From Candidatus Hydrothermarchaeum profundi (GTDB lineage: Archaea > Hydrothermarchaeota > Hydrothermarchaeia > Hydrothermarchaeales > Hydrothermarchaeaceae): a stretch of 64,000 nucleotides of DNA. Numbering within the stretch: position 1 is the stretch's first letter; each line of letters opens with the position of its first letter. Where the stretch lies: assembly GCA_002011125.2 (NCBI GenBank), contig MTMF02000009.1, positions 1,084,989 to 1,148,988 of the forward strand. The letters run 5' to 3'. Made by a program: the position numbers and the translations under genes. The notes below the pieces were generated by a model, which was not told the DNA's origin, ran no database searches, and worked only from the letters and a program-made list of their open reading frames with translations. Below, piece by piece: positions 9,357 through 53,082 of this stretch.

Positions 9357-12300
9357 ATGTCTAATTCCTCTAGGGAAAGGCCTGTATTGTCAGTATGGAT
9401 TCTACCGTTTATATTAGTTTTGACTATCCTCGCTTCATTAATGGCAAATTCACAAACGCAAGATGCGAATATAACAATACTCAATCCATATGAACATCCA
9501 AGATTGGGGGGAAACTGGACAATATACTTCACTACCACAGGAGAAGGAAGTCTATCGATCTATGATCACTCGTTCCCAGAGGAAGTCGAGTTTGTTGACC
9601 TTTATAAGAAGAAGAATAGTGAATGGAAAGTTGTTCCAGTAACTATCAATGATGATCTTATCCAAGCATATTGGGCATATTCTCAAGGAAAAGTTGTTTT
9701 TAAAGTTAAAACTCCTAAGAAACATATTCTTGAGATCCGATACGGTGAGCAAAAGGTATATGCTCATAATTTTGCTTCGCTTTCCGTAAATCTAAACGCT
9801 CCATCAAGAGTTCTTCGAGGGGATATCATAAACATCTCAGGGTACGCAATGAATCACAATTTATCTTCGGTTTATATTAACTACTCACTTCCAGAAGGGT
9901 TTGATATTATTTTTGGGGAGTCAAAAAAATACTGTGGAGGCTCTCCAATCTGTTGGAATAATATAACTATAAATACTTCTAGAGTCTCATTGGGAGAACA
10001 TGTTGTAAAATTAGAAGCCTGCTCATATGACATATGCGAATCTAATACTACTAAGTTAGTTATTGAAAATGTTAAAACTGTAGTAGGCGAGCCTTTACAG
10101 GGAAGGGCTATTATTGGTTTGCCAGTAGAGTGGAAGCAGGACTTCAATATATGGAACCCATCTTTAAGGAAGGTGTATAACTATACTCTTCCACTTCCAT
10201 TAGACGCTTTCGATATAAATGCGGGTAGTATAAGGGTAATAGATAATGTTCTACAGGAGATCGATGGAGGAGAAAACCTCTCTTTTTCTGTAAAATACTA
10301 TACTTCACCTCCTCTTCTAACCTCTGAAGATAAGTTACTTCTCCTCCAAGATCTCCTGCCTGATAACAGTATCGACATAAAAGTATACGAAGACGGAGTT
10401 CAATTGTTTAGTGCGTCTAATATTGACATGCTTAAAGAACTTCAATTAAAAGTGCCAGTAAAAGCGATAACAGTGTTTCAAAATTCTAGCGTAGCCTACG
10501 AGAATGTAGAGGTTAATGTGTCAGTTGAAGGAGTTCTACTTAAAAATAAAACAAAGTTAGAACCAATTAGAGCGGAATTATCAAATGGTAGCTTATTTTG
10601 GATAATTCCTCGACTTGAAAACAGCGAGACTTTTTACATTATTTCATCATATAATAAGTCTCAAGGAGAAGCTAGGGTTGGAGAAATTGTTCGATGGAGG
10701 CTAGATTTAGGTAAAAGGATAGTAGAGTACTCCACCCCATCACCAAAAATCCTAGAAACCGAGATACTAGAGAATGGAAAATGGAGTAAGGCAATTAACA
10801 TTAAGAGCGATGTTCTATTAGAGAATGTAACCGTAAATTCAACGATACCTGAAGTAAATTTCACTAAGGGTAAGAAACTAAAAATTAAACCCAAAAAAAG
10901 TTACTTCAAGGTAAATGAAAACCCGGAATTTGAAGTAGAAGTAGACACAAATATAAGTCTGATCTGGACGAATGGTACTACTCCTCTATTTAATGAAAGC
11001 ACCGACGTAACTAATGAAACATCGCATAGTGTAAGATTCTTAGATACGGATAATAATGGATTTAGTGACACTATTGTTTGGACTATTCCCTATCTAGATG
11101 AGCAAAATTACATAATCGAAAAAGATTCAGGGATAATTACTGCTGAAGTCGAGGATAGTCATGGAGTAAGAGCAGGAGTAAAGCCTAAGGTTATCAATGT
11201 AGGAGGAGGTAAATACAAACTTGAGATACCTTCAACTCGGGCTATTAAGCCAGGGTTATACAAGCTAGTAGTTGAAAGTAATGGGGAAAGAGAGGAGCTT
11301 TGGTTCCAGTGGGGATTAATCTCGATTAACACAGAAAAAGCTGTTTATCACCCAGACGAGGACGTAAAAATAATCATGGTTGTTTTGGATAAGGAAGGGC
11401 ATCTAGTATCTGGAGCAGATGTTAATCTGATTGTAAATCCTCCAATAGGACGCCCAACTACCTACTCTACTTCCGATAAAACAATTGTGGAAACCCAAAG
11501 AGGAATATATGAGGCAGTATATCGAGCAAGTCGCGAGGGAAATTATACCCTTTTTGCGTCCGTCAAAGCTCAGGATGTTGTGAGTTCTATAGACTCCTAC
11601 TTCACTGTTAGAGACTTTTATGAATTTGATATTTTGAGGAATATTCCTGTGACTATTGACCCAAGAGTTGGGCCGTTTAACTCTAGTATAAAAGTGATCT
11701 CTTATGTAGGCCATGGTACTCTAACTTTAAGAGAATACTTGCCAGCAGTGTTTGATGTAAATGCTGGTAATGCTATAATTAAAGAAGAGGGGGATACTAT
11801 TATCTTAGAATGGAAGAACCTTACAAATGGTTCTAAAGTGGTATATAAGTTCAATACGCCCTTTATATGGCCTTACTTATATATGATTGGTCCTGTTGAA
11901 ATTATTTATGATAATGGGACTTATGTTGAGGCAAGGCCTTGGATGCTTGCTGTTGATCCCTCAGAGGAAATATGTAATTGGTATGAAGATACCGTATCTT
12001 GGACTGCATTTGGAACAACAAACTTGGGTGCTATAGAATACTACAACTGGACATTAGATACTCCTTGCCCTGGGTCTTTGGATTGTTATATCGCGAACAT
12101 TTCAGTTTATATAAAATATACAGATCAAGGTACTGGGGCTGGTGCAGATCCAGGTCAAAGTTATGTGCAGATAGCTAATTTCACTGAAAGAAATCCAGAC
12201 CCCTCTCTGGCTAATTATAGTCGTTATGCTGCATATTCTCCAGACACTGCAGGCGGAGAGACTGTAGAAAGATGGGAGTGTGGAGAAAGCACGTCGCCAA

Positions 12301-15300
12301 ATACCTGTAGCCTTTCATTAGGAAGCGGATATAATGCTAGTGATTACTACTCTGTAAAAATAGAAGTACCTGCAAAATATAGTGCAGCAGTATCTTCAGT
12401 AAAATACCTCTGGTGTTATAATACCTCAAATCCTGCCTTAGTGGATGCCAATGTAACCCCAGCGAGAGGTGGTTGGGGTGAGATATTCAATTTTACCGTG
12501 AATGCTAGTGATCCACAAAATTCGACTGTAAACATCAGTTTATGGAAGTCCTATAGCATTCTTGATCCAACTTGGATACTAATAGATAACTATTCTTTAT
12601 ACCCCTCAGATCCCCCTGTAATTGTTAATTTTACTGGTAGATTTTTCAAACAATCTGATGTGGACAGTACTATATACTATAAATTTAATGCCACAGATGG
12701 ATCTAACACGAATGAAACGGAGATTAGATCATTAATAATAGAAAAGGACGACATAATTATCCAACACGGTAGTGGGAATGGAACGACCGTTAACCGTAGT
12801 GATAGTCTATCTAATTATAGTGTAAATTTGACTACAATAGTTTTCGATACTGATAATCAAACCAATGTTAGCGATGGCATACCTGGAAAACTTTGGATAA
12901 CACATGATGCTTCCCTTGGGTATCAGGTCGGAGATCAAGAAGGTGCTAGTACGCTAAATGGATATCTTCGAGCTTCAGCGACTGATGGGGTATTTAATCC
13001 TGACTGTAACTATAAGGCAGGAGTTCAGAAGTGGTACATGGAGATTACTGATAATTCATACTATAAAACTAATACATCTATAAACTACAGTGGAGACAAC
13101 TTCACTATTACTATACTGGGGGACCTTTCGATTTCTTCCTATAACATCCTGCCTTCAGCTACTATTGAAATTGGGAATAATGTAACAATAATATCGGATG
13201 TTCAAGACGATTGTGGGAGCGATATTGATGATGCGTCTGTGACCTTTAGGATAGTAAATAATACATATGGATACGACAATACCTACAGCGCAGATTTTAT
13301 TCCCTCATCTGACGATTATAGATTTAACCTTACAACCAACTTCAGTACTATTGAAGGTGTCTATAATGTTTATATAAATTCATATAAAGAATATCATTGG
13401 AATGGAACTGCAACAACTCAATTTAGATTATACTATAATCCATTATTAGAGGATGCGTCTGTTAGCGCATCAGAGATAGATGTCGGGCAGTATCTCAATT
13501 TCACAGTCAATGTAACTGATACTTTTAATGACACAGTTAGCATTTACCTCTGGACTAAGAAGGGGATAGGAAATTGGACACTTGAAAATTCAACCACTTG
13601 CACTGACTATGTTTTCCAATGTACTAATTGCAGTGACTTCGTAGCATATTGTTATAAACAATTCAGCGGCGGAGATGCTGGGACTTGGAGTTTCAAGTTT
13701 AATGCTACAGACGATAAGGGCAATACCCGAGAAACAGATATCGGATCTTTCCAAGTAAATAATGTTACACTTGTGTGGAACCACGTCCAGGGCAATGATT
13801 CTCTTGCTAATAGAAGCGGAACGCAGAATACTACGTTGGTATTGAATATTACTAAGCAGTCTGACGGTAGTCCCATAACGAATGAACAAGTGGAATTATG
13901 GGTGAGTACGGAGGGGGATATAGAAATCTCTTCGACAAAAGTAATGACTAATACAACAGATTCTTCGGGGTTAGTGTATTTTGATTTCGATCCAAGTTGT
14001 TCAATAAATGTAGGAGTACAGGAATGGAAAGGAGTAATGGCAGGTAGCGCAGGATACACGAATCCTGATTCATGGGAAGACGCTAACTTATATCTCGCTG
14101 TAACTGTTAATGGCACCTTGCAGAATTCGATAGACGAGCCTAATGGAGATGACAATACAACTGCGGGAAACATTATCACGCTTCAAGGAGTCATAGTCGA
14201 TGATTGCGGCAACGCCATGAATATAACCAACGGAACAGGGTATGCCACTGAAAATATAGCTTTCAATCTTACCAATGGAGGATTCACAGAATCTTGTACA
14301 CCTATAACCTTGATTGGGTCTAATGTATACAAGTGCTCATGGAACACAACGGGCAAGCCATCGGGGTGGTACAATGTCACATTTTCAGCTGATGAAGACT
14401 ATTACTATGGTAGCACGGTTACCCAATACGCTCCAAATACTTTCTTCCTTTTCACCCCTCCTGTTCTAGAAGATTATTCTGTAACTCCAACATCTGCTGG
14501 CTGGGGTGAGGGCAATTTCACATTTAGAGTTAATGTATCAGATTATACAGATTATTCAGGGCTTACCGTGAATGACACTGTTAGTGTACATCTATGGGAA
14601 AATCCTGGATCTGGTTGGACGGAGATATCACCTACAAACTATGCATGTACCGGATGCGATGATGAGCAGTTTACTTGGAGTAAGGAATATTCTTGTACCG
14701 AAGGCGGGGCCTCTGAAGTTGGATCGATTTTCTATAAGATAAATGCGACCGATGATTTTGATGGAGAAAGTCAGACTGAGACTCTTTCTTTTACTGTGGA
14801 AAAAGATGATGCAAAAATATATAATGTAACTCCCTCTTGGAATGCCACGATTAATAGATCCTCGGGTGTTACCTTTATTGTACAAATAAATGATACAGAT
14901 CGTAATACGCCGATATCAAATATAAATGAGTTCGGAAGGATCTATGTTACAATAGACGCCGATCTTGGTGCATGGGATTCACCTATCTTCAGTAGTACAA
15001 ATGCAACTGGTTACTTAAATAGGACTTTGACTGGTGGAGAAACTGGGACATGGTGTACTGGGGGTTATAAGCTAGGACAAGGCTACTGGAAAGCTGAAAT
15101 AAAAGACAGAGCCTGTTATAAGGATAACACCACAGTTGATATTCCCTTTATACTCTACGGAGACCTCATTAATACAATTCAAGAGCCAGATGGAACACAG
15201 AACTATACAAAAGGTGCCGGCAGTATAAGAATGAATGGCACGATCATAGATGACTGCTCGGCTTCTATTACCGGCTCAGGTACAACCGTTATATTCGAGA

Positions 15301-33300: not shown

Positions 33301-36300
33301 ATAATGTCACAATGAACATATCTAAGGCATACTACGATGACTACGCTATAACTTATGAAAACAGGTTTTACATAATAACTGAACCCGAATTTTCAGGTAT
33401 CTCTGTGAATCCAACCCAAGGAGGTTGGGGCGAAGTATTCTCCTTTACAGTTAATATAACTGATGACGACCTTGATAATGTAACATTATGGTTATATGCC
33501 CGGAGATACGGTACAGCTGAATGGAATAATCTAAACTCCACAAGCATTGTTGGAGCATTGAACGAGACAGTAACTTTGACAGCGAGTCGCTTTGATTCAG
33601 TTACATATAATGCGTGGCAAGGACCTGATAATGAAACTTGGGAGTTTGTATTTAGAGCAAGGGATAATAGCTCTAGGAACAATGATCTTTACAGTTCTAC
33701 AGTAAACTTCACAATAGAACAGGATGATGTAAGGTTTGAGATAGTCTCAGGCGACGGAGAATCGATATGGAGAAATGGTACGGATACTGAAAGACTTGTG
33801 GTAAGAGCAATAGATGCTGACACTAATCAACCATTACCGGCGAGTATGAGCATAAATTTCAGTATAACAGTAAATGGAACTGACTTTGAAACTTCATTCA
33901 AAAACATAACCAACAGCTCGGGATATGCGGTATACGAGTTTAGTCCAACCTGCAGTTATACAACAGGAATACAATATTGGAAAGTAACCTCAGATAATAA
34001 CCAGTATTACAAAAATAGTGAATCGGACAATTATACAATCATACTTTATGGAAATCTATCTTCTACAATAGAACTTCCAGATATATCTGTTCCAGGATAT
34101 AAGGCATATGCTTATCTTAGAGGTACTGATGTACCGATCTCAGGTTTATTAGAGGATGACTGTGGGAATCCTGTTGAAAATGCAACTGTAACATACACCA
34201 TAGAAAAAGGAAATCCCGTAAAAATTGCTCCAGGCGCTTCTGTCGGACTAGGTTACTATAACTATACATGGACAGAGTCAGGAGGCAAACCCTATGGCTA
34301 CTACAATATTACTATGAGTTCTAGCAAAGACTATTACGCTAGCAATACCACAAAGAAAGAAAACGCCTTCTATTTGGCGGATGATCCGTATCTCGGAACC
34401 CCTGCGCTTACAGTAGAGGATGATTATGGATGGGGTGAGGACTTCACATTTTCAGTACCTCTTGAGGATTGGGATGGCGACATTGTTAATGTAACTCTAC
34501 TAAAGAAAAAAGAAGGAGAAAATTGGACGGTAATTGATTCTAAGAATGCTACTACTTCTACGGTGCAATTCATCGAGAGCTTTACTCCAGACGACATGGG
34601 ACTAAACTATTACAAGATAAATGCCACCGATCCATGGGGCTTTTCTACAGAAAGCACCATTAAGAATTTCACGATAATCGAAGATGATATAGCGGTGTAC
34701 ATAAATGAGGGCGGAGGCAAAGACGTAAATAGAAAGACAGGTTCACAGCTCCTAGAGGGCTGGTTTAAGGATATAGATACGGGGCAAGGGGTTCCAGATG
34801 GAGTTGAAGGTAAAATTTGGGTAACCCTTGATGGATCAACTTATACTTTAGAATTTACTTGTAATACAACAACAAAGAATTCTATACCTGGTTACTGTGG
34901 AGTTTACTATACTCCGCCATGCAGCTCTGAGGTGGGTACGCAGTATTGGAAAGTAGGTGTAACTGACAGCAGATACAAATCTGTTAATGCTAGTGATAGC
35001 ATCACAGTGAAAGGACAATTAAACACAACGGTAGTAAGCCCAGATGACGGAATAATCCTAAATCGTGGAACTACAGAAGTCTTACTTAATGCGACAGTAT
35101 GGGATGAATGTGGAAATGAAAAAACTTATGAACAAAATCTTGAGGTAAGATGGTATAATAGTACATCAACAGTAAGTTCTAATTTACTGGTAACAGGCAA
35201 TAATGTGACTTGGCAGGTTCCCGATAATTATGAGTTAGGCCCAGAGACTATATACGCAGATGCAGGTAATCTACCGAACTATAATAACGCCAATACAAAC
35301 TGTGAAGCGTATTGCGGTAATGTATCGGTTGATATTTATGGCTGGAGTCAATTATACTCTATTGCCCCTGTTAATGGTACTATACTACAAGCATGGGAAG
35401 GCAGAGAAGATATCCGGTGTGTTGTGAAAGATCCTGATTTAGAGTGGCCAGGTTGGATCGTAGGTTACCCCGTAGAGTTCTTTAAAGATGGAATTTCCGT
35501 ATGGAATGATACAACAGATGATAATGGGGAAGCTATTTGGGGAAGACTAATCGCATCTGAAGGCTGGTACTTGGCGGAGGAGAGCTATGGTTGGCATAAT
35601 ATAACGTGCAGAATAAAAGACAACGCATCTAAATTTTATAATGTTTCAGTATCTGAGATAAGCTCATTAATATTTGTGAATAGAACCTTAGTTCTTGATG
35701 ATTTTTCTGCAAATCCTGCAACAATATATAGAAACGATTCATTTTCGCCTAATGAAAGCGTGATTTCAGTTACTTTAATTGATTCTGATGCAACTATTGG
35801 TGGAGAAGAGAATGCGACTGTATTCTTCTATAATCACACTATGGACTATATTGGCGAGTGCAAAACTGATAGTAGTGGGACTTGCTCAATCATATTTAAT
35901 CCCTCAGATACGATAGCTCCAGGTATATATGATATATATATGAATGCTACTTCTTCTGATCCTAAGGTTGCTAATTTAAGCATCAGTAAGATTTCTTTAA
36001 CTGTGCTCGGCAAGTTAAATGTTAATATAACATCGCCAGAGCCTAGAACATACACTAAATATAGCAGCATACCTCTAACTGCAATAATTACTTCAGAAAA
36101 TGGAGATCAAATAACAGATGCTTATGTCGCCTGGTATAACTCAAGTGGGGATATAATTGCAGTAGGTAATGGAAGTGAGACGTGGAGTACCGGGAGTTTA
36201 GCGGTTCAAAAAACAGGGGAGCAGGTTATAACAGCAAATGCAAGCAAGGACTATTACGATAGCAATTCTGGGGTTGTGACTATAGTGATTGGCGGAGAGG

Positions 36301-39300
36301 CTAAGGTTGAGTATCTTGCTCCGAAATCAGATACAAATTATCCAGATCCTATTAGCATATCATGTCTAGTAAAAGACGTCACCTATGATACTGGAATTGA
36401 AAACTATACCGTTGACTTTTGGAAATCTTATTCTGGAGAAGAGTACACTTATCTGAGTACAGAGAAGACTAATTCTTCGGGCATAGCGAACTATACCTGG
36501 GTGCCTCCTAAAAAGGGCACAGTCACTTTCAGATGTAATATAACAAGTGAGAGCAACTATACAGTGAATTCCACTAGGGGAGATAATGTATCCTCCTTTA
36601 CTATCACAATTAGGGATATAAAGCCGCCTACAATTTCTAGTGTAGTCATTTATCCCAATCAGAGCTTCGAGGCCTATACGACTGTCAATATTTCAGCAAA
36701 TATCACCGACGATTCAGGTATTGAAAACGCATGGGTACGAATTATTACGCCGAATGAGTCTGTTGTCATAATAGATATGCAAAATGTTTCTTCGATTTAT
36801 TCAGCTCAATATGACCCTCCAGTTGATGGCAGATATAAAGTTGAAATACACGCTGTAGACTTACCGCCTGACAGCAACGAGAATATGGTTTACAGCTATA
36901 TCTACGTATGGGGTAAAGCAAATGCTACGTTAAATAATACACCAATAAGTGTAAATCTATGGAATGTATTCTACAATAAAGGAGAAACATTTGAACTTTC
37001 ATTGAATTTCACAAATTATGGTAATGGCACAGCTTATGCCGTGAATATCACCTATAATGACACAGATCCTGAAGTCGATTTAGAATTCATTCCAGATTCT
37101 TGGGAGTGTGGAAATGTAAACAAGAGCGAAAGCTGTGCTATTAATGTAAATGTTACAATACCCTCTGCGACTACCCAGAGAACTATCATAGTACAAGCAA
37201 ATGCTACTTGGAGGAATCCAGACAGAACCATTAATATCTCGACCGTGACAACTGCAGCGGTTGTTAAAGATAATAGAGTAATAGAATTTGCTGTAATACC
37301 TGATATGCCCTTTATAACTCCCCACGGGACAATTAGCTCAACAAGTATTGTGCTCCTCTCGTCGGGCAATGCTAATGTAGGTAAAACCAATGTCAGTGCT
37401 AGAGACGGAGATGAAATTAATAAACTACATGATTACTGTCCAGATTGTAAAGTTAGAATTGAAAATGAGAAAATCTATTATATCAGCAGCCTGCCATGGG
37501 GGACAAACAAAACAATGCTCCTCACAGTTGAAGTTCCCACCTATCAGCCTCCTGGAACTTATATTACTCACGTCTGGGCAGAACCTGAAAACGCGGCTAG
37601 TATACAGTTCCCATTAACGATAGAGATTCCGGGAAATGCCTCTTGGCAAGTTTCACCCAATGATCTCGGTAATACTACCTCCTTCGTTCCTCTTCCAGGG
37701 CAGTATACCGAGGGTAAGATAGGAGACATAGTTATTACCAATATCGGAAATGTCAGAATCGATTACTCAGCTTCTACTCCAAGCATATCTGATATGAACG
37801 GTACTACGATACAGGCCATATTCACAGATACTGGTACCTCTGAGAACTATGCATATCCCGGAAATTCTATAGTACTGGAAGTAAACTACTCTATCCCATA
37901 TACTGCTGAAATGGGCACATACTGCGATAATATAAGAATAGATGTAACTAACGCTGAGTCAGTACCGCCAGAAGAAGCTGAACCCACATGGATATATATC
38001 CCCTTCTGCTTGGAGGTTACGGAGCCCAAGACTTACTGGAATCACACTCCAGAAGTAATTTCAGCGGAAGTTCTCCATGGTACAAGCGGTTATTTAGCTA
38101 ACGTAACCATAGTCAATACTGGTAATACGCCAGCGATTATCCATGTTTCTACTAATGGCTCAATATCCACTAATATCACTAATATTAGCTTAGAGGTGGG
38201 GGAATCTATATCGGTGCCTCTAAACTACTCAGTAAATTATACTACTCAGCGGATATACGATATCTCCTACCTCATAACGGATAATGAAACAGTTAATATT
38301 ACACGGTATACGATAGTAAATCTAACAGTCCACCCATATTCATTTGAGATTACTTATCCTACAGAAGCGGATAGAGCCGTAAATAAAGTAGCAGGAGAAA
38401 TATTAACAATACTCGTGAACGCTACATATGGAATGCCTATATCTTCAGGAATGAAGTTTACTGTTGAAATATCAAATGAGACGGAAACTATAATTTTCAA
38501 TGATTCCGAAGTCAATTCCAGTTATGATCCAGATACAGGGTTATGGGCCATTAATGTAACAATTCCAGAACTTGGAGATCCAAGTGCACCTGAGAGAGTG
38601 GCGAGCATAAATGTTTCAGCCAACTATACGGATATTGGATTTGTCCTATCAGATTACGAGCAAAACGCGTTAGTTTATAAAGACACAGTTAAGCCTATTT
38701 TATTCGTTTCGGTTACCCCTTGGTTTGGCTTAATAAATGACACAATAAACCTCTCTGTAATGGCTACAGATGCCGGAGGCATTAATAAGATCTCTGGAAA
38801 TGTGACTATTGAAAATGAAACCTATGATCTAAATTTGACATATACCGGTAATTATGAAAACACATATACATACGAAGGGAACTTCAATAATACCCGCCGA
38901 TCCGGCATATATCATGTGAGCATAGTAGCGTGGGATACTTCAAATAACTCGGAAATAATTGAAACAGATTTCGGTATATATTCCCCAATAAGTATAGGAG
39001 GGGTGGTAGAGGGGGCTAATGACACTATTGTAAATGCTAATTTCACTCTCTATGAAGCAGGTTATTACGGAGATTCTAGCAGAATATTATATAATATTAG
39101 TTCAAATGAGTCAGGTTATAACGAGACGATTGCAAACACGACGTATGATGTTGGCATAAGGGTTTATAAGCATGAAGTAATTTTCAAGGGAATAACTGCA
39201 GATATACTTTCAAGAGCGATTAAGGTTGACCGTATCTCCGAGAATATCTCGATTTCTAATCCACCTGCAATAGGGTATGCTGGCCTGGCGATTGAGGCTG

Positions 39301-41864
39301 AATATGATACAAGTGACATTACTATAAAACTGGATTTCTCAGGCGTTGCTTATAGTAATATTAGCAATTTAGCGGTCTATAGATGCTCAAATTGGAGCAT
39401 AGATCTCAGGAAGTGCTATGACTCTGAGTGGACTATGCCAACCGTAACAAAACTAGACGAAGAAAATAAGATTATTGAAGTTTGGACTTCAACTCTCTCA
39501 GCATATGTGGTCGGAGAACCAGATATATCAAGAGATATAACATCACCGGAAATAACCATAACTTCCCCAGCACAAGAAACAACATCGAGTTGCTCAGCAG
39601 ATGTTGATATGAAGGGTAGCATCGAGGAAGACGTTTCTGATCTTAGTTGGGTCGAGTATAGAATTGATGGAGGAAACTGGACGAGAGCTAATATTTCCCT
39701 GGGTACAAGTATGGTGGAAGACCTTAGTTTGACATGCACAAGCAAAAAGAGCTGCGAATTCCAGTTAAATCTCACAGATCTTTCATATGGTGACCACACA
39801 GCTGAGATAAGAGCCAATAATAGCGCGGGACTCCTCTCAGATACAGAGAAGCGTACATGGAGCATTATTTACTGTGGTTCTCCCCCGGCTCCGCCACCAG
39901 CCGGAGGCGGCGGCGGTGGAGGCGGCGGAGTAGCAGCGCCTGTTGTAAATATCACTCCACTAAAAGAAATGTTGAATGAAAGCTTAGAGGAAGTAGCAAA
40001 GGAACCTAAAGTTCCATCATTTAGTGTAGAAACAAATCTTGGCAGCGTAGAGTTGTATCCAGGTGAAGAGAAATGGTATTCAATTTGGATCACTAATCAT
40101 CTCAAGAGGAATCAGTCGGCTAATCTAACTGTAGTTGGCAGAGCAGCTAAGCATATTGAGCTTTACTGGGACGGTATTAAACTCCATACTAAAGATACGA
40201 TAACAATAGATCCTCAATCAACCGAAAACGTTAGAGTGAGAGTTTATGCGTTATCAGCCGAGAAAGAGGGTATCTCTACAGCAGACATAGTGATAAAGAT
40301 AGACGGTAAAACTCACATAGTACCTGTAACGGTGAAGGTAGTTGAGAAGAAAGAGCCGTTGATGGATGTTAAGGTGGAGGCTATTACGAAGGAGCTTTCG
40401 TTGGGTAGTCCTTTGAAGTTTTATGTTTCTCTTTATAATCTTGGTTTTAAGGAGAGGTTTGATGTTCATCTGGTGTATGCGGTTAAGGAGTTGGAGACTG
40501 AGAGGGTTTTGACTAAGGTTGAGGAGGAGATGGCTATTGAGACTTCTCTTTCTTTTGTTAGGGTTATTCCGGCTGAGAACCTTAGCTTGGAGGCCGGTAG
40601 GTATTATATTGAGGCGGCGGCCTTGTATGAGAATAAGTCTGCTTCTGCCGCGGATATCTTCACGGTGTTTAAGCCTTTCTGGACTACAACCAAAAAAATA
40701 GCAATGATAGCACTCTTCCTTATCACAACCGCGGGTGCATCCGGATATAGAGCAAGGAAGTGGTATATTGCTAGAAAGCAAGCAGCTGCTAGATATCTCC
40801 ATGCTACGCAATACAAAGATCTGCCTAAAGGACCCATGTGGATTGGGAAGATAGCTGAGACTGATATAAGAGCAGAATTTGATCCTAATGACTTAAGAAC
40901 TCATATGATTGTTGCAGGCGCTACTGGATCTGGTAAATCAGTAGCAGCCTCCGTAATCGTAGAAGAGTTACTCGAACTAAAGATTCCAGTTGTGGTATTT
41001 GATCCAACGGCCCAATGGACAGGATTTGTCAGGCCCTGTAGGGATGAGAATTTCTTCAAAGTATACTCGAAGTTCGGTATGAGAAGGGAAGATGCGAAAC
41101 CCTATCGGGGCCTAATATTCGAAGTCACTGATCCTAATGTAAGAATAGATTTCAAAAAGTATATGAATCCTGGTGAGATCACGATATTCACGTTAGATAA
41201 GCTAAAGCCTGGCGAGTATGATCAAGCCGTTATGAACATAGTTGATACCATTTTCGACATGGGCTGGGAGGAGTCTACTGAGTTAAAAATGGCTATTGTA
41301 TTTGATGAGATCCATAGACTCCACGAGAAATATGGTGGTAAGGGTGGTTATATCGCCTTAGAAAAAGGAGCAAGAGAATTCAGAAAGTGGGGTATAGGCC
41401 TCATAATGGTTTCTCAAGTACTTGCGGACTTCAAGGAGGAGCTTAAGGGTAATGTATTGACGGAACTACAGCTTCATACCAAGTCGTTGAGCGACGTTGA
41501 GAGAGTAAAAGAGAAATACGGAGAAGAGTACGCCAGTAGGTTAACTAAGCTAGAAGTAGGCGTGGGGATGATGCAGAATCCAAAGTATAATGGTGGAAGG
41601 CCCTTCTTTGTACACATCCGGCCGGTTAAGCACGAAGCCCATAAGTTGCCTGATCGGGATCTCGAAACCTATAAAGAGTTTGATAATCTATTGAGCATGA
41701 TTGAGACTACTATCGAGAACCTCAAGGCAAGCGGAGTAGACACTTTCGATCTCGAGCTAGAATTCAAACTCGCTAGAGATAAATTGAAAGAAGGTAGATT
41801 TAGAATGGCCGAGATATATGCTGAATCGCTTTTAGAGAGTTTAAAAAGGTATGAAAGAAGATGA
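9357..41864 (+). CDS. Giant 10,835-residue surface protein with C-terminal cytoplasmic HerA/FtsK-like ATPase
   Basis: One uninterrupted 32.5-kb frame, roughly 1.2 MDa at 110 Da per residue. Order: signal peptide (residues 1-33, hydrophobic core VWILPFILVLTILASLM); beta-rich N-region (about 34-870); a Cys-containing beta domain (about 878-1020); about 24 tandem A-B-C Ig-like modules (about 1030-8660); further Ig/CARDB-like domains (8660-10175); a Pro/Gly hinge with nine glycines (about 10177-10195); two juxtamembrane beta domains (10210-10440); one membrane span (about 10449-10466) followed by a basic RARKWYIARK; an ATPase with Walker A GATGSGKS (10521-10528), Walker B MAIVFDE (10645-10651) and LIMVSQ; and a C-terminal helical hairpin. 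The ATPase matches the HerA/DUF87 group, whose known members pump or translocate DNA. The topology puts the modules outside and the ATPase inside. N-x-S/T sequons are very dense. It overlaps the next gene by four bases. Confidence 0.92.
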   Translation: MSNSSRERPVLSVWILPFILVLTILASLMANSQTQDANITILNPYEHPRLGGNWTIYFTTTGEGSLSIYDHSFPEEVEFVDLYKKKNSEWKVVPVTINDDLIQAYWAYSQGKVVFKVKTPKKHILEIRYGEQKVYAHNFASLSVNLNAPSRVLRGDIINISGYAMNHNLSSVYINYSLPEGFDIIFGESKKYCGGSPICWNNITINTSRVSLGEHVVKLEACSYDICESNTTKLVIENVKTVVGEPLQGRAIIGLPVEWKQDFNIWNPSLRKVYNYTLPLPLDAFDINAGSIRVIDNVLQEIDGGENLSFSVKYYTSPPLLTSEDKLLLLQDLLPDNSIDIKVYEDGVQLFSASNIDMLKELQLKVPVKAITVFQNSSVAYENVEVNVSVEGVLLKNKTKLEPIRAELSNGSLFWIIPRLENSETFYIISSYNKSQGEARVGEIVRWRLDLGKRIVEYSTPSPKILETEILENGKWSKAINIKSDVLLENVTVNSTIPEVNFTKGKKLKIKPKKSYFKVNENPEFEVEVDTNISLIWTNGTTPLFNESTDVTNETSHSVRFLDTDNNGFSDTIVWTIPYLDEQNYIIEKDSGIITAEVEDSHGVRAGVKPKVINVGGGKYKLEIPSTRAIKPGLYKLVVESNGEREELWFQWGLISINTEKAVYHPDEDVKIIMVVLDKEGHLVSGADVNLIVNPPIGRPTTYSTSDKTIVETQRGIYEAVYRASREGNYTLFASVKAQDVVSSIDSYFTVRDFYEFDILRNIPVTIDPRVGPFNSSIKVISYVGHGTLTLREYLPAVFDVNAGNAIIKEEGDTIILEWKNLTNGSKVVYKFNTPFIWPYLYMIGPVEIIYDNGTYVEARPWMLAVDPSEEICNWYEDTVSWTAFGTTNLGAIEYYNWTLDTPCPGSLDCYIANISVYIKYTDQGTGAGADPGQSYVQIANFTERNPDPSLANYSRYAAYSPDTAGGETVERWECGESTSPNTCSLSLGSGYNASDYYSVKIEVPAKYSAAVSSVKYLWCYNTSNPALVDANVTPARGGWGEIFNFTVNASDPQNSTVNISLWKSYSILDPTWILIDNYSLYPSDPPVIVNFTGRFFKQSDVDSTIYYKFNATDGSNTNETEIRSLIIEKDDIIIQHGSGNGTTVNRSDSLSNYSVNLTTIVFDTDNQTNVSDGIPGKLWITHDASLGYQVGDQEGASTLNGYLRASATDGVFNPDCNYKAGVQKWYMEITDNSYYKTNTSINYSGDNFTITILGDLSISSYNILPSATIEIGNNVTIISDVQDDCGSDIDDASVTFRIVNNTYGYDNTYSADFIPSSDDYRFNLTTNFSTIEGVYNVYINSYKEYHWNGTATTQFRLYYNPLLEDASVSASEIDVGQYLNFTVNVTDTFNDTVSIYLWTKKGIGNWTLENSTTCTDYVFQCTNCSDFVAYCYKQFSGGDAGTWSFKFNATDDKGNTRETDIGSFQVNNVTLVWNHVQGNDSLANRSGTQNTTLVLNITKQSDGSPITNEQVELWVSTEGDIEISSTKVMTNTTDSSGLVYFDFDPSCSINVGVQEWKGVMAGSAGYTNPDSWEDANLYLAVTVNGTLQNSIDEPNGDDNTTAGNIITLQGVIVDDCGNAMNITNGTGYATENIAFNLTNGGFTESCTPITLIGSNVYKCSWNTTGKPSGWYNVTFSADEDYYYGSTVTQYAPNTFFLFTPPVLEDYSVTPTSAGWGEGNFTFRVNVSDYTDYSGLTVNDTVSVHLWENPGSGWTEISPTNYACTGCDDEQFTWSKEYSCTEGGASEVGSIFYKINATDDFDGESQTETLSFTVEKDDAKIYNVTPSWNATINRSSGVTFIVQINDTDRNTPISNINEFGRIYVTIDADLGAWDSPIFSSTNATGYLNRTLTGGETGTWCTGGYKLGQGYWKAEIKDRACYKDNTTVDIPFILYGDLINTIQEPDGTQNYTKGAGSIRMNGTIIDDCSASITGSGTTVIFEISNGAYTDTCVGNPVGSYYICDWTPPQGAPLGWYNVTMTSSKSNYNNGSDTVNNAFFLRSVPRLENPSIQAGAWGQSPFNFTVTLKNDNNVTTYVYLWLYNASSGWNLEDTRICTDSECYSYQANFSRNFSKDEVGSWQYKFNATDISGATNNTLSPSSFEVLKDDVIVSYIAGDGVEVNRSSGSVILRVQINDTIRGNIVVDEGTSCAFWIEKDGVNYASALINTTDSLGYCTYYFTPGNDYGAGEQNWTAGTYNDPYYNNNNLSVAKYLIIYGDLSANISDPGDSNIGDLITIRGRVIDDNSSEVVGANVIFELRREPTDSWEICGVTYNETGSNAGWYNCTWNSTGKTAGSWDVRMKVSKSYHNPNETIEIDLFNLISQPPSGTGLSVTPPVGGWGETFTYNVSVSDPENDNVTCKLWVNTSGSWELKGSQIQTAPYNCSIQVSDYTTLDINSNYSFKFELNDSNNLVNTSLAYGEIEKDDTSLDILVNDEDAIRGQTIVFSGVLTDTDNGNPISGAAINLTKDGEYVPYSNTTNSTGGYVIYYTISSSEAFGGHNFSVIYEGSSSLKGSISSNISVNISPSLTLLDLTTDDNKGWGETWNFKVNVTSDPAAPSVTIWLQYNRSGSWVNINYTECADCTTTTTKIITSNWSRDDSNLTRYYRFYANDSNQNNATTPSGNVNIQKDDIVIQGEGGVGATINRSNSINLSSRVIDLDTGAYEVDINTTSAFSTWITADGENYTEVSEEKNETHFYYTFTPTCGGQYQLGTQKWKMNVSNAAYFKDNESAEYTITILGSLSNILIQPNGSTNYTIGDTIILRGNVSDDCGNAVTGATVSFKLETNGATYLCEGASVSDEGNGWYNCSWDSSGKLNGTWYNVTIIASKTNYWNGSDSIANAFYLSTRPVLEDVLVSPPTGGWGKSPYYYTVNVTDTDGNNVTIRFYLRNETGEWILRNSTSCVNCNDYIVNFSWSYSYTDVGTWFFKFNATDESGSTATTSGEENHTISKDDILVSYLAGDGVEVNRSGNDYVNLSTFITDTERNVNVTDASVKIWVTTDGTIFDNGTTVTPEGNYYVFQFNPPGAPSCNYSAGVQKWKMNITGDPRYLDNTSQEFSVKIYADMDIAILEPNSEDITIGDSITIIGNVTDDCGVPVTDASVFFNITRNGAYVGNCTATHVGGGNYSCSWDSTGKTEGWYNVTMISERSYYYNKTSLKSNAFRLVGAPKLDNPSYSTSSGGNGWGATYNYTITVTDTEEDTVTVYFWIKKAGGTWAYQGNQTCTNCSGYVMSFLKNFTCNDQGTWFFKFNATDQGGNTNTTSESDNYHNVEKDRVSFTHVSGNGTEATTVIPTTFKLYLGDIDKGEAVADGTEVIFNVTYDGTNYFEYGPNLTQGGNVSYSFLPNMSFTSGWQSWTGQHIEDSCYLYNISSIYVVNVTLKYPPYIENGTVSGVTGGVSKGWGETWNFSVWVKDVDDAVTVTLWKTDLSGYVEDSNWENISQQVYTDIGNWQQLNFSPIFTPSDMGTWYYKFNATDEATNTNSTQRSLNSNFTITKEGIIFEYDASWAENNESIPANRSGTQSKELLILVKDINGTPLSNFNVTFQIERKGEGTNTWWDYDVVTNSSGYANLSFDPTCDNASTVGVDERFEVGKQKWRVKVVGLSDYNDSYSDEYNLTIWGDTRIYFDYPLNQTYTLPNRVPFEGRIFDDCGESLPNAEVEFWALGATHYLCGNTSSGDAYEPVPGLYRCRNEGEDGWKTSDKPTGYYNATWNITLSYYYINNSISGRIVPITDNLTLAKSPGWFELTISANAPDLSEADVEPRRDGWGVKRNFSVKVTNQNGDVMNISLWYQPPAQAEILLAYTGNVTSNGSDIIYFRDISFDSSLSGQVMKFKFYASDNDGDSYTGAGDYNASGDATLADNEFYLEKDDVVIEYVSGNETTVSSSGVVGEPLTLRIYDSDRKTYNIAPSATVIFNVTVDGENYTTVNTSTTNDTGYAEGTFTATSPPFPAGVSKQKWVGYIPNSDSYYKYTLSNIYNVTIDINNPPDMTDEKVNGVTEGASEGWGFVFNFSVKVRDDKNATTNISLWVDTANTADYELINYTICDACGSAGWVTINLSAKFTASDIGSASYYFKAVDNTSNENVTSAHTFTIEEDEVTFEVDPNSNGTNIIVNRSANAQPLNLTVRLRDENGSYLGGGISNTLTISKVGVYPGATWDSGRTVITNASGYAVYEFTPTCDNESTSLVDEEYEVGLHSWYIKVDDSESLYQPNQSDYYTFKVMGTLMNTIDEPKGNVTYDAGEIILIQGFIENYCGEPITTDVSNVWYNLTNGPYEYSCTNVTRTGANVYKCEWDSTGAQAGCYNVTMHSSMENYYDNETTKLAGTTFCLETPPSLQYANVSPREDGWGKNFTFSVNASDNEGDNVTVNLSYAIGSKSSAWYQILPSKTFTAGLNQTRLEWNKSYSCSEVGKTLFFKFYAIDTQGFTDETTASSYYIDGSDSFSITKDDVQILYSGGNNSEVNRSGNDTARLVLRVFDVDSNSYVNSTPTNVYFNVTIDGENFTRAYDTSGVSYATTNSTGHVVFDFNATCEHQVGQQKWIGYISGDSCYLNQVSSDYVLTVIGDLTTEINTGRANKSYYQNEDVDLWFEVRDECGSLIPGATLDVLVYYNSTLNYSCSPVTDHNNGTYNCTWQTANTTDYPTGAWKVRVISSKLPNYNNGSDIKTEAILLSSALNSAPELSNAVVEPNGWGGLTNYSVTVFDVDGDDVNVSLYENKSGSWVYIGSEICSTCSSSTQINFSVSHNWTDVGTMFYKFTAFDGTIETELIPASYQILKDNVSFLGVDGEASVNRSGTQTATLNFSVYDITNNSYVADYGKPEANCSVWMTKDYSSYYLSNISVTSNSLCTVEFDPDESYEVGVQYWKGGVYNDKYYADKNTSNRTILIIGDLYNAITTPDGDSYNIGQTVTIRFNVTDDAGKNLTGLTSQNFTISLEHNGNVYSCTDIVEEGNGWYNCTWNSTGAESGNYNITIISSATYYNNGSTIKENAFFIQAAPILENETVDPETKYWGSYFTFNVTLTDDDDTVTVRLWHRRNGTTTWYKINETTCVDCVGAVISFTRLYSSTEIDTWEWKFNATDGVSDVETTTKNLTVTKRNVTITLVYGDGGVVYRNGTDSLSLILQVKDAVDGSVLPISAGGGGFYVTTDYNNWGTRIDAPTNSSYLTTPPGEFDPDCTYLTGNQKWKGVYDGTSKYYSKETQNYTLNIYSSLSNTILEPLNSQPVQKGQSLLIKGYVEDECGGVEGASVTFDPYIGSTSYAALCASPAPEEGGGNYTCNLDTSLIDDADLGYYNITITSSKGAPYNYTTDVETEVNAFKLGFRPELVNSSVSPSSDGWGSNFTFSVRFRDREGDQGNITLWIAYNESGPWYPIVSRSETNSLWTTLTDIESFTKENFTSALNGVVYFKYNVSDSNGFTNETGVKNFALERDNVTISFVEGSGSVNRLGSNTITLKVRVNDTDAGNVPVGASVKGRIYTDVEYNDTTTDNDGYLYYILDPSCEPLYSAGPHTWVGGTFNDTYYDDENSSQSTFNVTGQLYNNLLEPLLGASFNVNDNITIRFYVSTDCSAEGNQTIDNATIELIHNQSGYTSSCSVITEEAPGVYNCTWDTSGKLEGNWSIRINSSKQYFNNASTLWVNHLMLDNNPPNATLANQTVEVVPAQGPWGISYAYRVNISDPEGDNVSCILYANTNGTWVMRGSVTVEGGSGVCTIILPNSTFNKADYYYNYSGNNVKFYFAIDDGQSGEAFNTTIVYSPSFEKDDVVVTYGGLGNDTYLVRNSDNQILRLRINDTDAGIPANNANGTIWITNVSGIWIPIGSNTTDNNGYLSINFTPDCSYSIGKQNWTGGTDGDLYYVNRNTTDNLVITIMGGLSSNAWSLNESHSLDSNFTRGEENITIRANITDECSALVSSANVEFTLSQGSQNYTCNVVEEASQVGYYNCTISTNDTWSAGWYNLTVTSSKSNYQMDSNLIENFLFIETKPKLTEPNVTTSNGSNVGGYSEIFNFTVKLTDEDLDEVTVYFWYKKVGDNWTLLGTEQASGIGVVVYKTLTQKPLGNYLAKFNATDPRGYINETETVNFTIEGDDVNFIALEGNGSSVVRTSGSVNLTVRVTDLDTDPESVVDAFTQGKIWVTTDAELNIWDSGISAQTYPDSDGVLRTLSDEQITFSPDCNYKVGIQKWKAGLTDTGDKYKEQNSSEWLVTITSSLNANITYPINKTFLRGDSILVNGTVGDECTTSVEGANVTFNLTHMSTGDNLTCQAQDDGEGNYSCTISTTGLSDIWLGYYSITMIVEKPHYTSAYDFENRSLFLASAPVIDSATLTLPKGKVSEAKWGDGIYQWDINIIDNDQDNVTVELWKKIGSGNWVKINSTVSVYPARTISFKHYLNCSDIGTNYWKVNVTDIWGYTATTDGTDNFGVDKDDTTAVQVTPDGVEVNRSDTEPGNTLIITYRIWDSSKGDYAEGANGFFNITYDGVNQTPNRYNTSDSNGYVRFYFNPENNFSVGPQTWRGGVINDGCYYDSNVLERTLYINGTLTLNLTQPANGSVFAVNDNITIRLNISSDGSEVPSDAVVTIQLIDKNNNVESCTPVLNEGGENASWFNCTWDTTAHVGGAWDILVNASKSYFNFNSTLFIDWFNLTNTPPSTANINVTPSIGGWGRNFTFTIDVDDTQNDDVTCTLYTNTTGVWIERGNDTVYGGHGTCTVTVSPFLGNGFNYSDVGNDNYFKFRVDDKTEGNVFEVNSSGPIIEKDTIQLIYIQGDNSEVNRSNSQTTTFVLFVNDTDKGIGVQDPNVSVKFNVTTDGSSYNFDGENYTNSSGYVIYYFDPGDIYNIGIQNWTAYVVNDLAYKNAVLGVYTTTILGDLNYQIEEPQGSRILRGNNVTIRLNITDDRSTPQLVPNAAVKIILTSNLTGQSFVCNVNNETGANAGYYNCTFETNSTVPAGAYNITVEASKSYYNNISEDVPYIAGVSSFFLETKPHIENPVLITTTANGSLGDGGWGEDYNFSVYVYDYDMDTLTVKLWINLSTGWTQKGTTLVDGNGTVSFIFNDVDTINKDEVGDRSFYFWVSDSIYNNQTDYQNFTVGKDDVSFTLISGNSTFNRSTPGDYFLNVSIYDSDLGVKMESGITTNFWYTKDGSTFVRSPNEFTDSNGEAKTKITISCGGGFSVGPQYWFNEFSGGAYYKHVNSTIYTYTVVTEPLTAVIETPNNEEPHLRGASDPINISVKVTDDCGGVENASLVINILGPSIKECTNIVNISGGYYNCTVSDTSTYSYGIYNVTSNVTKAFYNGTYVISESAFAIASAPGLPTIWADTPQTPYYTDNSWGETWRFYARVEDADGGDVNVTLWSNKSGAWELVNSTMCYSCYGGDIYFYENNLFTGDDIGKQYFKFNVTDQYNYTTESLDNVTVNPDDLEINIISGFSETVNREGNDTALFVIRIKDKDRTKALGIDVYLGEGRSGMFWVTTSGIENGPVDSGTSNTTESNGYLRLNFDPDSNIHGVGLQYWDGGIIGDPWYTSRNLSQDKGQKYEVTIIGQLKNNITNPTYGTNITVGSLVDINVSIFTDNSTQDYQENTSVVIKVKSSTGSWINCEPVISEGDGKYTCTWDTTGLEGGNWSILVNSSKQYYNDNATIFWNWTYLKNTPPNATGLKVSPSTGGWGENFTFSVNVTDAQNDTVTCTLYTSNDNGATWILRGNDTVIDTYPGPAICSVQVSPYFGNGFNSSDIGKNHTYKFEIKDTTIGNEFNVSPVSGPQIEPDDVTIVYVWNSSDIVNRDTGNIDFILKVYDNDLKNYAEGANITIWITTDGSNYSGNSSLTNSSGDILISFDPSCDYTAGVQYWFGNITDWRFKSANTSIYLLTIIGSLDNPFTQLTTPNVGSEFLRGENISFSGSVYDDCSNIVNDANVSFISTHTSSGNEYLCQATYNNTDQVYKCTRNTSGMEARYYNVTMNISKAYYDDYAITYENRFYIITEPEFSGISVNPTQGGWGEVFSFTVNITDDDLDNVTLWLYARRYGTAEWNNLNSTSIVGALNETVTLTASRFDSVTYNAWQGPDNETWEFVFRARDNSSRNNDLYSSTVNFTIEQDDVRFEIVSGDGESIWRNGTDTERLVVRAIDADTNQPLPASMSINFSITVNGTDFETSFKNITNSSGYAVYEFSPTCSYTTGIQYWKVTSDNNQYYKNSESDNYTIILYGNLSSTIELPDISVPGYKAYAYLRGTDVPISGLLEDDCGNPVENATVTYTIEKGNPVKIAPGASVGLGYYNYTWTESGGKPYGYYNITMSSSKDYYASNTTKKENAFYLADDPYLGTPALTVEDDYGWGEDFTFSVPLEDWDGDIVNVTLLKKKEGENWTVIDSKNATTSTVQFIESFTPDDMGLNYYKINATDPWGFSTESTIKNFTIIEDDIAVYINEGGGKDVNRKTGSQLLEGWFKDIDTGQGVPDGVEGKIWVTLDGSTYTLEFTCNTTTKNSIPGYCGVYYTPPCSSEVGTQYWKVGVTDSRYKSVNASDSITVKGQLNTTVVSPDDGIILNRGTTEVLLNATVWDECGNEKTYEQNLEVRWYNSTSTVSSNLLVTGNNVTWQVPDNYELGPETIYADAGNLPNYNNANTNCEAYCGNVSVDIYGWSQLYSIAPVNGTILQAWEGREDIRCVVKDPDLEWPGWIVGYPVEFFKDGISVWNDTTDDNGEAIWGRLIASEGWYLAEESYGWHNITCRIKDNASKFYNVSVSEISSLIFVNRTLVLDDFSANPATIYRNDSFSPNESVISVTLIDSDATIGGEENATVFFYNHTMDYIGECKTDSSGTCSIIFNPSDTIAPGIYDIYMNATSSDPKVANLSISKISLTVLGKLNVNITSPEPRTYTKYSSIPLTAIITSENGDQITDAYVAWYNSSGDIIAVGNGSETWSTGSLAVQKTGEQVITANASKDYYDSNSGVVTIVIGGEAKVEYLAPKSDTNYPDPISISCLVKDVTYDTGIENYTVDFWKSYSGEEYTYLSTEKTNSSGIANYTWVPPKKGTVTFRCNITSESNYTVNSTRGDNVSSFTITIRDIKPPTISSVVIYPNQSFEAYTTVNISANITDDSGIENAWVRIITPNESVVIIDMQNVSSIYSAQYDPPVDGRYKVEIHAVDLPPDSNENMVYSYIYVWGKANATLNNTPISVNLWNVFYNKGETFELSLNFTNYGNGTAYAVNITYNDTDPEVDLEFIPDSWECGNVNKSESCAINVNVTIPSATTQRTIIVQANATWRNPDRTINISTVTTAAVVKDNRVIEFAVIPDMPFITPHGTISSTSIVLLSSGNANVGKTNVSARDGDEINKLHDYCPDCKVRIENEKIYYISSLPWGTNKTMLLTVEVPTYQPPGTYITHVWAEPENAASIQFPLTIEIPGNASWQVSPNDLGNTTSFVPLPGQYTEGKIGDIVITNIGNVRIDYSASTPSISDMNGTTIQAIFTDTGTSENYAYPGNSIVLEVNYSIPYTAEMGTYCDNIRIDVTNAESVPPEEAEPTWIYIPFCLEVTEPKTYWNHTPEVISAEVLHGTSGYLANVTIVNTGNTPAIIHVSTNGSISTNITNISLEVGESISVPLNYSVNYTTQRIYDISYLITDNETVNITRYTIVNLTVHPYSFEITYPTEADRAVNKVAGEILTILVNATYGMPISSGMKFTVEISNETETIIFNDSEVNSSYDPDTGLWAINVTIPELGDPSAPERVASINVSANYTDIGFVLSDYEQNALVYKDTVKPILFVSVTPWFGLINDTINLSVMATDAGGINKISGNVTIENETYDLNLTYTGNYENTYTYEGNFNNTRRSGIYHVSIVAWDTSNNSEIIETDFGIYSPISIGGVVEGANDTIVNANFTLYEAGYYGDSSRILYNISSNESGYNETIANTTYDVGIRVYKHEVIFKGITADILSRAIKVDRISENISISNPPAIGYAGLAIEAEYDTSDITIKLDFSGVAYSNISNLAVYRCSNWSIDLRKCYDSEWTMPTVTKLDEENKIIEVWTSTLSAYVVGEPDISRDITSPEITITSPAQETTSSCSADVDMKGSIEEDVSDLSWVEYRIDGGNWTRANISLGTSMVEDLSLTCTSKKSCEFQLNLTDLSYGDHTAEIRANNSAGLLSDTEKRTWSIIYCGSPPAPPPAGGGGGGGGGVAAPVVNITPLKEMLNESLEEVAKEPKVPSFSVETNLGSVELYPGEEKWYSIWITNHLKRNQSANLTVVGRAAKHIELYWDGIKLHTKDTITIDPQSTENVRVRVYALSAEKEGISTADIVIKIDGKTHIVPVTVKVVEKKEPLMDVKVEAITKELSLGSPLKFYVSLYNLGFKERFDVHLVYAVKELETERVLTKVEEEMAIETSLSFVRVIPAENLSLEAGRYYIEAAALYENKSASAADIFTVFKPFWTTTKKIAMIALFLITTAGASGYRARKWYIARKQAAARYLHATQYKDLPKGPMWIGKIAETDIRAEFDPNDLRTHMIVAGATGSGKSVAASVIVEELLELKIPVVVFDPTAQWTGFVRPCRDENFFKVYSKFGMRREDAKPYRGLIFEVTDPNVRIDFKKYMNPGEITIFTLDKLKPGEYDQAVMNIVDTIFDMGWEESTELKMAIVFDEIHRLHEKYGGKGGYIALEKGAREFRKWGIGLIMVSQVLADFKEELKGNVLTELQLHTKSLSDVERVKEKYGEEYASRLTKLEVGVGMMQNPKYNGGRPFFVHIRPVKHEAHKLPDRDLETYKEFDNLLSMIETTIENLKASGVDTFDLELEFKLARDKLKEGRFRMAEIYAESLLESLKRYERR
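12440..35340 (+). repeat. Array of about 24 three-domain (A-B-C) protein modules
   Basis: Protein-level repeats of about 320-340 residues (970-1030 bp). Domain A opens with a G-W-G motif then F-x-F-x-V-x-V-x-D and ends K-F-N-A-T-D. An E-K-D-D linker leads to domain B (N-R-S sequon; F-x-P-x-C; Q-K-W). Domain C has D-D-C-G and a G-W-Y-N-C-T-W end. Approximate domain A markers: 12470, 13480, 14500, 15520, 16480, 17090, 18050, 19020, 19670, 20770, 21480, 22510, 23540, 24490, 25470, 26450, 27460, 28470, 29430, 30460, 31430, 32430, 33420, 34430. The short intervals after 16480, 19020 and 20770 lack domain C. Nucleotide identity between copies is mostly low, so the array is old. Confidence 0.85.
39881..39933 (+). 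other. Pro/Gly hinge in the giant protein
   Basis: GC-rich codons encode SPPAPPPAG followed by a run of glycines, separating the distal Ig-like rod from the membrane-proximal domains. A similar hinge of prolines and glycines lies at about 1340-1390 (minus strand) in the 1963-residue surface protein. It probably acts as a flexible joint or proteolysis-resistant linker. Confidence 0.7.
40353..40703 (+). repeat. 351-bp perfect direct repeat, copy 1 (inside the giant gene)
   Basis: Identical base for base to 42251-42601, an offset of 1898 bp. It encodes the domain from PLMDVKVEAITKEL to the first membrane residues TTKKIA. Its codon use breaks from both flanks: Glu is always GAG (15 of 15) and Lys is AAG until the last two codons, whereas neighbouring sequence mixes GAA/GAG and AAA/AAG and favours ATA and AGA. 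Confidence 0.95.
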
Positions 41865-42676
41865 GAGTTTTATTGTTAATTATAATATTATGCACCTTTG
41901 ATAAAGTGAGCGTGGTCTACGGATCTGGTATAAGTGTAGAGACCGATATGGTAGAGCCTGTATTTGCTCCTGGAGAAATTGGGAGGTATTCTGTATGGAT
42001 TACAAATAATCTGAAAGAAAATCAAACTATAACTATTTCTCCTGCTGGTAAGATATCTAACTTGTTGGAAGTTTATTTTGAGGGCAAAGAACTCTCAACT
42101 AGTAATTTTAAGCTTAGTACTGATACGACGGAACATCTTGAGTTAATTGTTAATGCTCCGGAGAATCCAGGGATATATACAGGATATCTTGTTTTATCAT
42201 CTGGATGGGGAACCCAAGCGATACCAATATCAGTAAAGGTTATTGATGATGAGCCGTTGATGGATGTTAAGGTGGAGGCTATTACGAAGGAGCTTTCGTT
42301 GGGTAGTCCTTTGAAGTTTTATGTTTCTCTTTATAATCTTGGTTTTAAGGAGAGGTTTGATGTTCATCTGGTGTATGCGGTTAAGGAGTTGGAGACTGAG
42401 AGGGTTTTGACTAAGGTTGAGGAGGAGATGGCTATTGAGACTTCTCTTTCTTTTGTTAGGGTTATTCCGGCTGAGAACCTTAGCTTGGAGGCCGGTAGGT
42501 ATTATATTGAGGCGGCGGCCTTGTATGAGAATAAGTCTGCTTCTGCCGCGGATATCTTCACGGTGTTTAAGCCTTTCTGGACTACAACCAAAAAAATAGC
42601 AGTTCTACCTATATTCGCTGGGTTAGGTCTGATATGGTATAAGAAAAAAACAGGAAATATTGGGGGGTTGAAATGA
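41861..42676 (+). CDS. Short membrane protein copying the juxtamembrane region of the giant protein (271 aa)
   Basis: Residues 1-22 form a signal peptide (MRVLLLIIILC, ending VYGSG). The first domain (about 23-130) is a diverged homologue of the giant's residues about 10212-10330; compare SVETDMVEP and YSVWITNNLKENQ with SVETNLGS and YSIWITNHLKRNQ. The second domain is identical to the giant's because it lies in the 351-bp perfect repeat. A single membrane span (about VLPIFAGLGLIW) and a tiny basic tail (YKKKTGN) follow, with no ATPase. It overlaps the giant gene by four bases (ATGA), so the two are translationally coupled. It could form mixed membrane-proximal oligomers with the giant protein, capping or diluting ATPase subunits. 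That is inference. Confidence 0.85.
   Translation: MRVLLLIIILCTFDKVSVVYGSGISVETDMVEPVFAPGEIGRYSVWITNNLKENQTITISPAGKISNLLEVYFEGKELSTSNFKLSTDTTEHLELIVNAPENPGIYTGYLVLSSGWGTQAIPISVKVIDDEPLMDVKVEAITKELSLGSPLKFYVSLYNLGFKERFDVHLVYAVKELETERVLTKVEEEMAIETSLSFVRVIPAENLSLEAGRYYIEAAALYENKSASAADIFTVFKPFWTTTKKIAVLPIFAGLGLIWYKKKTGNIGGLK
42251..42601 (+). repeat. 351-bp perfect direct repeat, copy 2 (inside the short membrane protein)
   Basis: Identical to 40353-40703. The flanks diverge immediately on both sides: GAT before versus AAA in copy 1, and GTTCTA after versus ATGATA. The sharp ends point to a recent copying or gene-conversion event confined to the juxtamembrane domain. Confidence 0.95.
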
Positions 42677-53043: not shown

Positions 53044-53082
53044 TGGATTTACCCGAGCTAAAATTTTAGTTTTTATATACAC

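Follow-up and report, generated by a model that had tools for sequence, protein, structure and literature searches.

SPEARE giant proteins of the Nanohaloarchaeota were described in 2019 by Hamm (PMC6642349) and reanalysed in 2023 (PMC10266531); examples are BNXNv_0298, SVXNc_0300, SG9 and that of Ca. Nha. antarcticus (PMC6642349, PMC10266531). The 2019 definition requires the ectodomain to carry one laminin-G domain or more (PMC6642349). The 2023 study re-read the cytosolic domain as a VirB4/TraG-like ATPase and proposed that the Ig-like domains bind while the VirB4-like ATPase secretes (PMC10266531). For the way in which DPANN archaea seize material from their partners and exchange it with them, SPEAREs are a leading candidate device. 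Here we analyse a giant gene of Candidatus Hydrothermarchaeum profundi and its neighbors. All coordinates are positions within a 64,000-nt stretch of contig MTMF02000009.1, referred to as the window.

The giant frame and its architecture

The gene runs from an ATG at 9357 to a stop at 41864, and no stop interrupts its 10,835 codons, as a preliminary description of the window had claimed. At the local base composition an open frame of this length is expected by chance with a probability of about 10^-340, and the remaining five frames over the same interval contain 502–1,283 stops each. The product is organized as follows:

9357–41864 (+): giant SPEARE-like protein, 10,835 aa (open frame, homology)
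9357–9455 (+): N-terminal signal peptide or signal anchor, residues 7–33 (hydropathy)
9456–12470 (+): variable N-terminal tip, residues 34–1038 (comparison with other giants)
12471–35156 (+): stalk of 24 super-repeats, each about 330 aa long and a string of beta sandwiches, residues 1039–8600 (profile search, model)
35157–40694 (+): membrane-proximal ectodomain, residues 8601–10446, homologous to other giants (sequence comparison)
40353–40703 (+): copy 1 of an exact 351-nt direct repeat, in frame within the giant
40695–40748 (+): membrane span, residues 10447–10464, with basic inner flank (hydropathy; helix in model)
40836–41636 (+): HerA-type ATPase core, residues about 10494–10760 (motifs, profiles, model)
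41679–41861 (+): C-terminal helical tail (secondary structure of model)

This anatomy agrees closely with what the preliminary description had read from the sequence. The hydrophobic segment at residues 7–33 corresponds to its N-terminal signal peptide, and the ectodomain of about 10,400 residues is the sequon-rich beta structure that it had claimed: 559 sequons are present against 183 in shuffled sequences and 0 in the cytosolic part, and the units are beta sandwiches. The single span with a basic inner flank is likewise found, at residues 10,447–10,464 with basic residues following. An MG2-like domain lies within the tip (residues 658–734).

A stalk profile was built from ten units, and a genome search with it counted the 24 copies. 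One modelled unit (pLDDT 91) consists of beta sandwiches in a string, similar by fold to macroglobulin domains and to giant adhesins. Copies of the unit also occur elsewhere: 21 in G067, 18 in G096, 9 in G081, and 1–3 in smaller members. The G067 protein (L051–L052, G067:C2:31316–65095) is, at 11,259 aa, longer than the giant of the window. Since the ~330-aa unit is common to other giants in varying copy number, the sequences suggest that the giants most likely arose through tandem expansion of a pre-existing unit, which would make stalk length variable. Along the ectodomain, the membrane-proximal ~1,800 residues are homologous among giants, while the N-terminal tip varies.

The C-terminal part matches the Pfam DUF87/HerA central domain (E=9.6e-13), and this profile result supports the ATPase that had been claimed. 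Its Walker motifs are complete, as stated earlier, with GATGSGKS at residue 10,521 and IVFDE near 10,650. An alignment of 33 family members contains about 50 invariant columns, including the Walker A and B residues and an EFRKWGxG...SQ block. The AlphaFold2 model of residues 10,302–10,835 (pLDDT 89.8) finds the Sulfolobus HerA hexamer (PDB 4d2i) as its top fold match in the PDB, and a profile search of PDB sequences also puts HerA first. A second, weaker HerA-like match elsewhere in the genome, a 516-aa frame, is probably a canonical HerA-like protein.

One claim of the preliminary description failed, namely that the combination of rod and ATPase was not previously known. The architecture is that of SPEAREs (PMC6642349, PMC10266531), and span plus ATPase are 51% identical to BNXNv_0298 over 395 residues; the length of the G039 frame, 8,880 aa, is the one published for that protein. 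With the C-terminal 344 aa as query, strong homologs were found in distant genomes, many in frames of 2,000–11,262 codons, and the named assemblies among them include Aenigmatarchaeota, Nanohaloarchaeota and Nanoarchaeia. Matches in bins labelled 'Heimdallarchaeota' and 'Omnitrophota' come from contigs 3.4 and 13.2 kb long, which may have been binned wrongly. Pfam scans of residues 1–9900 (E<=0.01) and of the C-terminal 754 aa detected no laminin-G domain, and scans of the giant detected neither the protease nor the endonuclease features of the 2019 definition, which the 2023 paper argues are absent from SPEAREs too (PMC10266531). We use the term 'SPEARE-like' because these three features were not found. 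Identification of the giant as a SPEARE-type architecture is strong.

Genes beside the giant

The preliminary description, right about the giant's anatomy, missed the operon to which the gene belongs, with its coiled-coil partner, an ATPase-less twin and a linked surface protein:

299–6190 (−): 1,963-aa surface protein with NEW3 and MG2 domains, span, and cytosolic hairpin at 314–457
41861–42676 (+): 271-aa twin with signal peptide, membrane-proximal domains and span, no ATPase
42251–42601 (+): copy 2 of the exact 351-nt direct repeat, in frame within the twin
42782–44218 (+): 478-aa cytosolic coiled-coil partner, core 42962–43564, helical hairpin 43766–43912
44208–46400 (+): 730-aa coiled-coil protein, same operon

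The start of the twin overlaps the stop codon region of the giant at 41861. Over its first half it matches the giant at 34% identity, and over its second half the two are identical for 117 residues, or 351 nt. Recombination between the two copies was computed to remove 1,898 bp and to leave the ectodomain of the giant connected to the span of the twin. As both copies are in frame, such an event would fuse these parts into one protein and could thereby unplug the motor half of the giant. We found no description of an ATPase-less twin with an exact repeat in the SPEARE literature (PMC6642349, PMC10266531). Twins elsewhere show a related pattern. In Nanohalovita (G039), the ATPases of giant and twin are 87% identical and the adjoining ectodomains 25% (regions L047:8417–10300 and L047:10303–12342); the G080 twin retains an ATPase 80% identical to that of its giant, and over both genomes the adjoining ectodomains reach 25–27%. 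The contrast suggests repeated homogenisation, by gene conversion or domain exchange, in the Nanohaloarchaeota, although strong selection on the ATPase explains part of the likeness and may account for it in place of conversion.

Downstream of the twin lies the coiled-coil partner, whose family is represented at 28 of 32 loci by one of the two nearest same-strand genes downstream of the giant. Family members score with E-values of 1e-32 to 1e-77, against about 1e-4 for the best non-members. Across 101 genomes the partner core is present in 16 of the 17 with a SPEARE and in 1 of the 84 others (Fisher 1.8e-16), as counted with a profile built from SPEARE loci that may miss more distant members elsewhere. 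The one genome of those 84 that has it, G001, is 62% complete and from the same family as the window's host; its partner gene shares 57% identity and is cut off by the contig end. The SPEARE literature (PMC6642349, PMC10266531) yielded no description of such a partner. Assignment of the coiled coil to the archaellum protein FlaC/ArlC was rejected: FlaC_arch gave weak, sub-threshold matches (6 of 24) amid many generic coiled-coil families, and the two that were located lie at differing positions.

Following the partner gene, 44208–47208 (+) encodes the 730-aa coiled coil and then a CheR methyltransferase, with overlapping ends. An MCP gene is present elsewhere in the genome. Since no counterpart of the 730-aa protein was found in other SPEARE loci, its membership in the machine is uncertain, as is a link of the CheR to it. 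The adjoining row of QueC, DUF366, radical SAM and PTPS genes at 47247–49520 (+) is a deazaguanine operon of the archaeosine/queuosine type, and farther on, 51184–53082 (−) encodes a protein of 632 aa that carries CarboxypepD_reg-like repeats and matches DUF835 weakly.

In G096, G081 and G040, relatives of the 1,963-aa surface protein are neighbors of the SPEARE locus. Among 376 ORFs scanned, the helical hairpin was found only in this protein, three relatives and the coiled-coil partners, an exclusivity limited by the profile having been seeded from these same two kinds of protein. Gene neighborhood and shared hairpin make it likely that the surface protein belongs to the SPEARE machine; no surface protein with a partner-type cytosolic hairpin was found described in the SPEARE literature (PMC6642349, PMC10266531). 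A 2,252-codon frame elsewhere in the genome (G000:C9:930881–931675; L121, L122) is similar to the N-terminal portion of that protein.

Candidate mechanisms

The account that we favor, and to which we give an even chance of being right, is a SPEARE-like contact machine in which an adhesion stalk stands on a HerA-type translocase or traction motor with a coiled-coil partner. The very long and probably glycosylated stalk, with 24 units and on the order of 100 beta modules, would provide reach, and its single span would join it to the ATPase, most likely a hexameric ring beneath the membrane. At the contact site the ring would act as an ATP-driven translocase or traction motor, moving either a substrate or the stalk itself, partnered by the conserved cytosolic coiled coil. 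Probably the 271-aa twin is a co-anchor of the giant; it would dilute or replace giant subunits in the ring, and the exact repeat would open the way to gene conversion, or to swapping of the motor half in frame. We infer the hexamer, the contact, what the substrate is and which way it moves, and the role of the repeat; with one span in each subunit, it does not follow that the spans line a channel. No pore component, nuclease partner or substrate of the machine was identified. The energised contact or translocation proposed in the preliminary description stands as the best class of explanation; the mechanosensing that it also suggested is now part of a rival.

In that rival, which we consider rather unlikely, the protein is an adhesin with a regulatory ATPase: the ring clusters, tensions or releases stalks and signals through the coiled coil, moving no substrate and serving mechanosensing or fibre turnover instead. 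A conserved cytosolic coiled coil as sole constant partner fits such a role, as do a twin wholly without ATPase and the finding that genes for a secretion channel, a nuclease or a pilin do not recur next to the giant across loci. The most conserved part of the protein, however, is the ATPase, with translocase motifs and the HerA fold.

Less probable still is a DNA exchange device, in which the ATPase would import or export DNA between touching cells in the manner of CedB/CedD or conjugative coupling ATPases. HerA itself translocates DNA, and CedD is the closest NCBIfam model for the ATPase (E 2.3e-11), but this match is far under its cut-off and mirrors the common HerA/FtsK fold, and CedA-, TedC- and NurA-like genes were not recognised in the locus. 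The NCBIfam T4SS models likewise score far under cut-off. Pfam T4SS-DNA_transf reaches 23.1 bits (cut-off 20.1), a weaker match than DUF87, and no further T4SS or Ced components were recognised among the locus neighbors.

We put forward tentatively, as less likely than not, a broader version of the favored contact machine, one not recognised before. It would comprise the giant stalk-motor, a co-anchoring twin, a near-obligate coiled-coil partner and an accessory surface protein tied in through the hairpin; it would have spread horizontally between DPANN archaea and a larger-genomed lineage, with recombination at the repeat switching between motor-bearing and motor-less forms. The ATPase-less twin and exact repeat suggest a route to sharing or switching the motor, and the near one-to-one partner could serve as bait in pull-downs, as a target for localisation and as a marker in genome mining.

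Origin and comparison with known systems

The gene lies in the middle of a 1.92-Mb contig of a 2.19-Mb archaeal genome. The stalk units used in the profile share just 24–40% protein identity, no tandem DNA repeat was found in the giant gene, and its sole exact long repeat is the 351-nt one at the 3' end. Frames of this size class occur in single-contig genomes also (8,880 and 8,573 aa). An assembly error behind the frame is unlikely, because the divergence among units is too great for an assembler to mistake one for another, similar frames exist elsewhere and the contig is 1.92 Mb long.

Neither the ATPase nor the stalk unit was found in 22 other genomes of the phylum, and the C-terminal 344-aa query gave no comparably strong homolog in the same family, order or class. 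In the ATPase tree the window's sequence nests with Aenigmatarchaeota and Nanohaloarchaeota (DPANN). The window's aIF2-alpha is 52–68% identical to those of same-class genomes, compared with about 28–45% for most SPEARE-bearing genomes and 49–52% for G035 and G057. Because the ATPase nests in DPANN and phylum-mates are without the gene, while aIF2-alpha follows the host, these comparisons make it likely that the gene was acquired horizontally, at the base of the host family or earlier, in a direction that we infer. That a DPANN locus was instead fused to the contig of another archaeon by assembly or binning would fit the absence from phylum-mates and the DPANN position of the ATPase, but is extremely improbable given a mid-contig locus whose base composition is that of its flanks, DUF366 and aIF2-alpha genes of the host lineage, a left-flank PhoU-like gene closest to a genome of the same order, and a partner in same-family G001 that stands beside ordinary genes. 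A viral origin was rejected, as a query with a single protein found no relative among viral contigs. A truncated IS-like transposase at 8350–8889 (−), separated from the start of the giant by 467 bp on its upstream side and lying on the opposite strand, retains an InsA zinc ribbon and 63 of 139 positions of the DDE domain, and is possibly a trace of mobility.

Giant bacterial adhesins such as SiiE and the 1.5-MDa ice-binding adhesin resemble the giant in their tandem beta-sandwich stalk and in fold matches, but are without a fused ATPase; they leave the cell via separate type I systems. The VARTIG modules of Thermococcales likewise contain a long surface protein of Ig domains, and the smaller genes behind it align and recombine with its C-terminal part; no ATPase is mentioned there, and the recombination was inferred between species, not neighboring genes (PMC8416519). 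With HerA (PF01935; PDB 4d2i) the giant shares a predicted RecA-type core, Walker motifs and fold. It differs in being membrane-anchored and in having about 30–50 residues between span and core without the full HAS barrel, and no NurA-like gene appears among the Pfam matches of its neighbors. VirB4/TraG and CedB/CedD are related to it through the common HerA/FtsK superfamily; the pairing of a family model over cut-off with T4SS components nearby that would mark a type IV secretion VirB4/TraG was not found.

The closest system is the SPEARE, with which the giant shares a signal peptide, an adhesive ectodomain of giant size, a single span close to the C-terminus and a cytosolic ATPase. Both the long extracellular part and a homologous, conserved intracellular ATPase region are present, and a smaller second homolog lies immediately downstream. 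It departs from described SPEAREs in length (10,835 aa against a published maximum of 9,409), in a downstream twin without ATPase that has an exact repeat in common with the giant, and in a host outside the small DPANN genomes; at 2.19 Mb, that genome indicates that a SPEARE-type device is not restricted to the smallest symbiont genomes. The combination of stalk and ATPase was already known; new relative to the 2023 paper are the coiled-coil partner, the ATPase-less twin and the repeat.
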